A DNA stretch of 64,000 nucleotides from Asaia bogorensis (GTDB lineage: Bacteria; Pseudomonadota; Alphaproteobacteria; Reyranellales; Reyranellaceae): the NCBI GenBank assembly GCA_945889625.1, contig CAMDCE010000009.1:50506-114505 (forward strand), in the 5' to 3' direction. The translations under genes were made by a program, and so were the position numbers. Positions within the stretch are counted from its first letter, which is position 1. Every line of letters starts with the position of its first letter. This document shows positions 56,920 through 59,519 of this stretch, one piece after another. The notes beneath the pieces were generated by a model, which had not been told where the DNA came from, did no database searches, and was given only the letters and a program-made list of their open reading frames with translations.

Positions 56920-58443
56920 TCAGGCCTTGGAGGCGCGGCGCGGCAGAATCCAGAAACACGCAGCGGCCATCAGCGCGATCAGCGCGGCCATGATCAGCAT
57001 CGTGACACGGTAGCTGCTAAGGTAGGCCGAGGTGCCGCTGGCAATTACCTCGTGCACGAGCTGGGCGTTGAACTTGTCGGTATCTCCGGTTTGCACGTAG
57101 CTCTGGAGAATGCCGATGGCCTGGGCCTGCTCGGCGGGCGTCGATCCGGCCTCCTCAAGGCGCTGCCGCAGCAGTGGATTGAAATTTCCGTAGATGAGAG
57201 ACGTGCTCAACGCCAATCCGAAGGCGAAGCCGAACTGGCCGAACGCCGTGCGCGACGAGCCGACGGCGCCGACCAACGCCGGCGGCGGCTTGGCGACGAA
57301 GACGTTGGCGGTCGGCGCCTGGGTCAGCATCAGGCCGGCCCCGGCTGCAAGCAACGGAAGCACGAAGAACAGGTAGGGTGTCGATTCGCCGGCAAAGGCC
57401 ATCGCCGCCACGGCGCCCGCCATGGCGAGCAGCCCCACGGGAACCAGCAGGCGCATGGAGACGCCGCGTGCCACCAGGGTGCCGGCCCAGGCCGCTGCCG
57501 CGATGCAGGCGATGATGAAAGGCAGTTGGCCCAGGCTCACTTCGATGGGCTTGTAGCGATAGACGTATTGCCATAGCAGCGAGAGCTGAATGGCCACGAC
57601 CGCGTTGCCCATATTGAAGCCGATGCCGGACACCGCGCCGACCATCAGCTCCGGATCGGCAAAGGAGCGGATCGGAAAGGCCGGAGTGGCAGAGCGCCAT
57701 TCCCAGATGCCGAACGTGACCAACAGGACCAGACCTGCGCCCAAGGGAACCAGCACCTTCACGCTGAGCCAACCGGCCGAAGCGGCGCTACTGACGGCGT
57801 AGAGCACGCTGACCAGCCCGATCGCCACCAGGACCAGGCCCACGGCGTCGAAGCGGCCGGCCGCGGGATCCTTGGCCTCGGGCACGGACTTCATGCACCA
57901 GAACAGTGCGCCCAGGCCGACCAGCGGGCCCACCAAATAGGCCGCCCGCCAACTCACGCCGGCCAGGTAGCCGCCCGCCACGCACAGGATCACGATGGCG
58001 AAGGTCTGGAGCGCAAGCCATTTCGCGACGATGCGCGCCAGCTCCTCCGGGCTTGTCGCGATCGTCCGCAGCAGCGCAAAGGAAAGCCCGAACGAGGCGG
58101 CAAAACCCACGCCCGACAGGGCACGTCCCAGCGCGAATACCGTCGAGTTCGGCGCCATCGCCGTGACCGCCCCGCCGGCCAGCGTCACGAGCAGCCCCGC
58201 CAGCATCACCCTTCTGCGGCCCAGCCGGTCGCCAAGACTGCCAGTCGCCAGGATAGCGGCGGCAATGCAGAGCGTGCCAATGCTCGCGGCAAGCGAGCGC
58301 TCGGTACCGGTCATGTGCAGCGCATTGCCCGCCGCGACGACCGCGATGTTGTGGATCGCAGGATCGAGGTTCATGGGCAGCGACGCACCGACCAGCGCCA
58401 GCAGAGCCGATCCGCTCCCCGGTGCCCGTGCCATCTCGCTCAT
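56920..58443 (-). CDS. MFS transporter (DHA2/EmrB-like, 14-TM)
   Basis: 507 aa; GSLGDRLGRRRVMLAGLLVTLAGGAVTAMAPNSTVFALGRALSGVGFAASFG. Confidence 0.92.
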   Translation of the reverse strand: MSEMARAPGSGSALLALVGASLPMNLDPAIHNIAVVAAGNALHMTGTERSLAASIGTLCIAAAILATGSLGDRLGRRRVMLAGLLVTLAGGAVTAMAPNSTVFALGRALSGVGFAASFGLSFALLRTIATSPEELARIVAKWLALQTFAIVILCVAGGYLAGVSWRAAYLVGPLVGLGALFWCMKSVPEAKDPAAGRFDAVGLVLVAIGLVSVLYAVSSAASAGWLSVKVLVPLGAGLVLLVTFGIWEWRSATPAFPIRSFADPELMVGAVSGIGFNMGNAVVAIQLSLLWQYVYRYKPIEVSLGQLPFIIACIAAAAWAGTLVARGVSMRLLVPVGLLAMAGAVAAMAFAGESTPYLFFVLPLLAAGAGLMLTQAPTANVFVAKPPPALVGAVGSSRTAFGQFGFAFGLALSTSLIYGNFNPLLRQRLEEAGSTPAEQAQAIGILQSYVQTGDTDKFNAQLVHEVIASGTSAYLSSYRVTMLIMAALIALMAAACFWILPRRASKA

Positions 58444-59519
58444 CGCCTGTTCTCCCCTTGCAGCAAGCCCCGTATGGCCGGCGCGACGACGGCGGGTGCC
58501 ACGTCGGCAAAAAGCACCTCAAGAGATGCTGGATCCAGCTGGTCGGCCGGACCGATGCAAACGATCTCGCTGCGATCCGACAGCGTGCGCGGCCCCGGTA
58601 TGCCTTCCAGAGACCAGCGACGGCCGACAAGCTGCAGTACGAAGCGGCGGTCAGGCGCCTCGCTCAGCCGCACAATGCCCTTGGCACGAACCACAGCAGG
58701 CGGGAGCGCCGCGACCGCCGCGCGCAGCGCGGCGCCTTCCAGCGGGCATCCCCTGACGAAGGTCCACGTCGTGAACATCCGCCCATGGTCGCCATCGGAT
58801 GCCGGAAAAGGCGGGCGGCGCTCGGCCCTGTCCAATAAAGCGCGATGACTTTCCCTCGAATCGCGCCGTCGGCCCGGCTCGTGGACCGCTTCGCTGCGGG
58901 AGCCGGGCCGACGGCCGAAGCAAAAGTCATCGTGCTGTAGAAGCAAATCCGCGAACGAACCCGCGTCCGGACCCGCCAAGATACGTGCCTGCGGCAGCTC
59001 GGCTTCGATCCATCGCCGGACGCGCCGGCAGGCGTCGGCATCGACGAGGTCGGTCTTGCTCAACACGATCATGTCAGCGGCGGCGAGCTGCAGCCGCACG
59101 AGATCGCCGACATACTTGTCGTGGCTCCGCTCCTGTATCGTCTCGGCGTCTGCGATGACGACGATGCTGTCGAGCGCCAGCCGCGGATGGCTCGCCGCGT
59201 AGTGCGCGATGTTGGCGGGATCGGCGACGCCGCTTGCCTCGATCACGATGCGCTCGGGGCCGTCGGGACGCTCGGCGAGATCGTACAAGGCGAGGCCGAG
59301 ATTGTCGCCGATCGTGCAGCAGACGCAGCCGTTGGTGAGGCTGATGGTCTCGCCGTCACGACGCGCGACCAGCGCGGCATCGATGTTCACGCTGCCGAAG
59401 TCGTTCACCAGAACGGCAAGCTTGATGCCATGCGCCTGCGCGAGCAGGCGGTTGAGCACCGTCGTCTTGCCAGCGCCCAAGTAGCCGCCTATCACGACAA
59501 CGGGAATCTGGCCCGCCAT
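58440..59519 (-). CDS. COG0523 / CobW-like GTP-binding metallochaperone-family protein
   Basis: 359 aa; GGYLGAGKTTVLNRLLA Walker A, TNGCVCCTIGDNL (CxCC), LSKTDLVD; contains an internal palindrome. Confidence 0.9.
   Translation of the reverse strand: MAGQIPVVVIGGYLGAGKTTVLNRLLAQAHGIKLAVLVNDFGSVNIDAALVARRDGETISLTNGCVCCTIGDNLGLALYDLAERPDGPERIVIEASGVADPANIAHYAASHPRLALDSIVVIADAETIQERSHDKYVGDLVRLQLAAADMIVLSKTDLVDADACRRVRRWIEAELPQARILAGPDAGSFADLLLQHDDFCFGRRPGSRSEAVHEPGRRRDSRESHRALLDRAERRPPFPASDGDHGRMFTTWTFVRGCPLEGAALRAAVAALPPAVVRAKGIVRLSEAPDRRFVLQLVGRRWSLEGIPGPRTLSDRSEIVCIGPADQLDPASLEVLFADVAPAVVAPAIRGLLQGENRR
58843..58932. repeat. Palindromic element inside the COG0523 GTPase ORF
   Basis: Outer arms CGATGACTTT (58843-58852)/AAAGTCATCG (58923-58932), perfect 10 bp; inner arms CCGTCGGCCCGGCTC (58866-58880)/GAGCCGGGCCGACGG (58900-58914), perfect 15 bp. 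Confidence 0.85.

Follow-up and report, generated by a model that had tools for sequence, protein, structure and literature searches.

IS630-family elements duplicate a TA dinucleotide on insertion (PMC2170065), and IS630 itself prefers the TA in 5′-CTAG-3′, a preference described by Tenzen and Ohtsubo (1991) in the form in which that work is cited in PMC2170065. A short element ascribed to an IS630 transposase, on the basis of shared ends and TA targets, is the RUP element of Streptococcus pneumoniae, a 107-bp MITE with about 100 copies (PMC2229807). ERIC/RU-1 and the Correia element (107 bp) are TA-ended hairpin MITEs as well, and both occasionally form in-frame fusions with genes, some of them at the C-terminus with loss of the stop codon (PMC2229807, PMC2759123). 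The Rickettsia palindromic elements (RPEs), palindromes of 105–146 bp, are found in frame within unrelated proteins (PMC10969869, PMC2229807). Nearly half of the RPEs lie in genes (PMC10969869), and the RPE sequence given in the founding paper carries no terminal TA (PMC2229807).

Here we analyze a palindromic element located within a COG0523/CobW-like GTPase gene of an alphaproteobacterial genome. The gene lies in a stretch of 64 kb that was analyzed as a whole and is referred to as the window. A sequence-only reading of this DNA had suggested a gene-invading palindrome analogous to the RPEs. In our analysis, the element most probably belongs to a non-autonomous MITE family mobilized by an IS630/Tc1-mariner-type transposase, to which we assign a probability of about 0.86.

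The element in the cobW gene

The features of the locus are as follows:

58440..59519, minus strand: host gene, a COG0523/CobW-like GTPase of 359 aa, with the reading frame open through the element
58836..58939, minus strand: palindromic mobile element classed as an IS630-type MITE, with about 87 related copies, a TA duplication deduced for other copies from their CTAG empty sites, and no counterpart in homologues
58836..58852, plus strand: terminal inverted repeat, end A, TAAAGCGCGATGACTTT, which supplies a new TAA stop at C-TAG sites
58923..58939, plus strand: terminal inverted repeat, end B, AAAGTCATCGTGCTGTA, complement TACAGCACGATGACTTT
58865..58880, plus strand: inner palindrome arm, 16 bp, perfect
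58900..58915, plus strand: inner palindrome arm, 16 bp, perfect
58836..58837, no strand: putative TA target duplication, copy 1, assigned by analogy with other copies, whose empty sites are seen in G069
58938..58939, no strand: putative TA target duplication, copy 2, assigned in the same way; the next base, 58940, is G

Measured from terminal TA to terminal TA the element comprises 104 bp, or 106 bp if one flanking base is included on each side, and in the direction of the gene it reads TACAGCACGATGACTTTTGC...GGAAAGTCATCGCGCTTTA. Both arm pairs of the palindrome that had been noticed inside the CobW-like gene are present. The inner pair is perfect as claimed, extending over 16 instead of 15 bp, and the outer pair (58836–58852 and 58923–58939) is longer than the 10 bp initially assigned to it, being complementary at 15 of 17 positions. 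Folded as RNA of the gene strand, the element reaches −71.6 kcal/mol (z = −8.1), a stability attained by none of 200 shuffled sequences. The element had further been described as a 90-nt span that keeps the reading frame, of which the second part holds true and the size does not: the 104-bp copy results in a net insertion of 102 bp, i.e. 34 codons, and hence the cobW reading frame is preserved. Since cobW was not found in G069, the TA duplication at this gene is assigned from other copies. The base outside the first TA, 58835, is now an A, whereas a C would be expected from CTAG.

In the host protein, the CobW GTPase domain (PF02492, residues 6–179, E 6e-46) precedes and the CobW_C domain (PF07683, residues 249–339) follows the inserted peptide, which agrees with the position proposed for it between the GTPase domain and the C-terminal region. 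The insertion amounts to 34 residues, QHDDFCFGRRPGSRSEAVHEPGRRRDSRESHRAL, at approximately residues 195–228, and falls in a variable linker of the CobW protein. The alignment of homologues that had been recommended for the then roughly 30-aa segment revealed that the 34 residues are absent from all 22 aligned proteins, none of which shares the peptide; the G009 homologue, for example, reads FAQLLL-VGSAP where this genome encodes FADLLL-(34 residues)-LDRAE. An AlphaFold2 model places residues 202–219 at a pLDDT below 50, while the flanking domains are well predicted. A tolerated linker insertion would be the simplest reading of the cobW copy, and the insertion is probably a passenger with little or no function.

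Copy number, target site and spread

When the whole genome (5.2 Mb, 132 contigs) was searched at DNA level, about 30 further places emerged at 72–97% identity, mostly 86–97%, plus weaker ones; a covariance model based on 25 copies located about 87 places. The dispersed copies that the sequence-only reading had proposed to look for are hence plentiful. The main size classes span 104–137 bp, with 39 copies in the class of 105–106 bp, 27 copies of approximately 132 bp that contain an extra nested hairpin, a further class of 136 bp, and rarer short or composite forms. A multiple of three base pairs is added by 48 of 85 copies; copies of the 105- and 132-bp subfamilies would not maintain a reading frame. 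As fragments of a longer divergent subfamily account for two of the 87 places and for at least two more, the number of copies is approximate and likely to be a lower limit. This longer subfamily (L165, L166, L251, L252) has ends like CTAGAGCGTGATGACTTTC and carries two nested hairpins, GGCGCGATGG..CCATCGCGCC and GCGCAATGGCTCGAAGAGCCATTGCGC. The 27-bp hairpin of the long subfamily was also considered as a stand-alone mini-element, which was rejected because the flanks show that it is nested in a larger divergent subfamily. Single-ended hits, sought as possible flanks of a full IS, proved to be truncated copies only.

Across the genus, any match to the element was detected in 10 of 61 genomes, with many matches in few of them: G069 and G011 contain many, G049 and G070 several. 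A plasmid collection gave no match to the element.

The DNA of G069 is about 90% identical to this genome where loci align, and a query made of the joined flanks placed the sites of more than 12 copies in G069. In most of the alignable pairs, an empty site with the sequence CTAG, or a one-base variant of it, is opposed to a filled site of the form C-TA-(element)-TA-G, as exemplified by the empty site ATCTGC-TA-GACGCGG and its filled counterpart ATCTGC-TA-AAGCGCG...GCTG-TA-GACGCGG. The empty site is likewise CTAG at L082, L094, L098, L100, L102, L105 and L108, and TTAG at L084 and L109. L080, L081, L096 and L116 are compatible with a CTAG target, their 4-bp context being less clear partly because of drift in G069. 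These comparisons show that the target of the element is the TA of CTAG and that this TA is duplicated on insertion. A TA duplication inside CTAG in turn points to transposition of the IS630 type.

Position of the copies relative to genes

Gene contexts were derived from a home-made periodic Markov coding model trained on this DNA and not from annotation; in this model the element was set neutral and its stop codons were honored. For 48 of the 87 copies, the stop codon of the adjacent gene is located at element positions 2–4, eight more copies overlap a stop codon otherwise, and about 28 are intergenic. The Markov model labeled only the cobW copy as genic, and a separate frame check added two more, so that reading frames harbor 3 of 87 copies compared to 27% of CTAG sites that lie inside genes (p = 1.2e-8).

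CTAG, a rare sequence in this GC-rich genome, often forms a TAG stop codon. It occurs 25 times in the 64-kb window, where 86 occurrences would be expected from a Markov estimate, and in 486 kb of flanks plus the window it is found 57 times on stop codons, 87 times between genes and 52 times inside genes. As the target is rare and often a TAG stop, the copies are concentrated on stop codons; the preference for stop codons thus largely follows from the target. The orientation at these sites is one-sided: all 27 informative genes enter the element from the stop-restoring end and none from the other (p = 1.5e-8), informative elements (L080–L166) being those with one end that reads TAA, TAG or TGA and one that reads TAC. 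Since CTAG is self-complementary, its four bases cannot set the orientation. The 27:0 bias indicates that C-terminal extension is selected against, and both this bias and the depletion within genes point to selection.

Besides the cobW copy, the copies found in reading frames are:

L096 2501-2606, minus strand: copy in an isochorismatase-type gene (PF00857), in frame near the gene start
L085 2501-2606, minus strand: copy at the C-terminus of an HpaR-type MarR regulator (TIGR02337, above the curated cutoff)

All three genic copies share one orientation and are read in one frame, CTA(or TTA)-CAG-CGC-GAT..., which is the only one of the six frames of the consensus without a stop codon. The cobW and hpaR copies are open. 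In the isochorismatase copy the loop contains a TAG, as a result of which the gene is probably broken; in G069 the isochorismatase homologue is uninterrupted, with its two halves continuous. In hpaR the element begins a few residues past the end of the TIGR02337 match, and the fusion adds the element peptide and about 14 further residues. The genic copies hence give the impression of rare survivors that occupy the single harmless frame.

Mobilization, alternative explanations and known systems

The element lacks a transposase gene, is short and possesses 17-bp terminal inverted repeats. We compared it with four IS630 copies of the genus, three from this genome and one from G011, all of which reside in a C..TA/TA..G context and begin TAGAGC; most of them carry GAATC at positions 22–26, or adjoining these, at one end. 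The element end TAAAGCGCGATGACTTTCACTCGAATCG shares with them the TAnAGC start and the position of GAATC. In mean similarity to the IS630 ends it falls within the top 0.2% of 13,099 TA-starting 30-mers, which were mostly taken from this genome's own flanks, while the similarity as such is modest, with 17 of 28 positions at best. An IS630 with identical terminal repeats was looked for in G000, G069 and G011 and not found, so that the partner transposase is one that we infer. The longest open frames of the IS630 copies at L230, L233, L236 and L239 comprise only 206–242 aa, and these copies may therefore be frameshift-split or degraded.

We propose that an IS630/Tc1-mariner-type transposase mobilizes the element, or did so recently. 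Insertion takes place at the TA of CTAG with duplication of the TA, a full 104-bp copy adding 102 bp (34 codons). At C-TAG stops, the end reading TAA immediately stands in for the TAG that was lost, and no informative copy at a stop codon is oriented so as to append 34 residues. Insertions within genes would mostly be removed by selection, and the genic copies that persist would use the sole stop-free frame, in which the leucine codon CTA is read as CTA-CAG-CGC...; in cobW, this frame yields the 34-residue linker between the GTPase and CobW_C domains. Whether the element has itself been shaped to survive in genes, by means of its stop-restoring end, its one stop-free frame and a multiple-of-three length, is a further question, and we regard such a design as unlikely. 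The 105- and 132-bp subfamilies, which add non-multiples of three, weaken the case for an adaptation of length and frame to genes. If the design were real, many CTAG insertions would be harmless, and a MITE that lands on stop codons could continually supply in-frame linkers and C-terminal extensions.

The nearest alternative is an analogue of the RPEs, i.e. a palindrome adapted to invade genes in frame and to persist in proteins. It would account for the in-frame cobW copy, for the single open frame that is used by all three genic copies and for the 102 bp added by a full copy of the 106-bp class, a multiple of three. However, reading frames hold only the three copies mentioned, one of them with a stop, the 105- and 132-bp subfamilies do not fit a frame, and the read-through orientation is absent at stop codons, which renders this explanation very unlikely. 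The element is indeed dispersed, mobile, in frame and alphaproteobacterial, as the sequence-only reading had proposed; what does not hold is its gene-invading character, given that most copies are intergenic or located on stop codons. An in-frame insertion resembling an RPE can thus come about as a rare survival, with no special capacity for invading genes.

Strong, GC-rich hairpins in high copy number at the 3′ ends of genes would also be expected of a REP/BIME-type repeat that is spread by a RAYT (Y1 transposase) and serves as a terminator or mRNA stabilizer. We consider this highly improbable, as the only Y1_Tnp in G000 is not close to any element and no Y1_Tnp was detected in the element-rich G069, RAYTs are not characterized by a TA duplication in CTAG, and the consensus lacks the T-run ends of a terminator. 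The strong fold and the nested hairpin modules of the long subfamilies could likewise suit a regulatory RNA or attenuator kept by selection at gene ends, but no Rfam match came near the gathering score, the presence in the genus is patchy and many sites are empty in the closest relative, making this reading extremely unlikely. Finally, an open frame in a naturally variable linker is what ordinary CobW-subfamily protein sequence, palindromic by chance, would show; this reading is refuted by the dispersed related copies, which lie mostly outside genes, and by the lack of the segment in the 22 homologues.

The IS630-type MITE family offers a clear and testable case of how a rare, stop-associated target such as CTAG, together with selection, shapes the sites at which a mini-transposon survives. 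It also serves as a warning that some extra protein segments in this genus are translated transposon DNA.

When compared to IS630 of Shigella sonnei and its family, the element agrees in the TA duplication and the CTAG target, and the IS630 copies of the genus share its TAnAGC ends; it differs in being only about 0.1 kb long, almost fully palindromic and devoid of a transposase gene, and its exact ends were found on none of the IS630 copies examined here. RUP is similar in size, copy number and attribution to IS630, but all six frames of RUP contain stops, whereas the present element has one open frame, targets CTAG and concentrates on stop codons. ERIC/RU-1 and Correia, compared by description and residing in different hosts, resemble it as TA-ended hairpins, whereas read-through of a stop codon into the element occurs in 0 of 27 informative cases here. 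With the RPEs, again compared by description, it shares the in-frame genic insertion through one open frame, as seen in cobW, but nearly half of the RPEs are genic as opposed to 3 of 87 copies in our case. Taken together, the element most probably represents a new family within a known kind, the IS630-type MITEs, and not an RPE.
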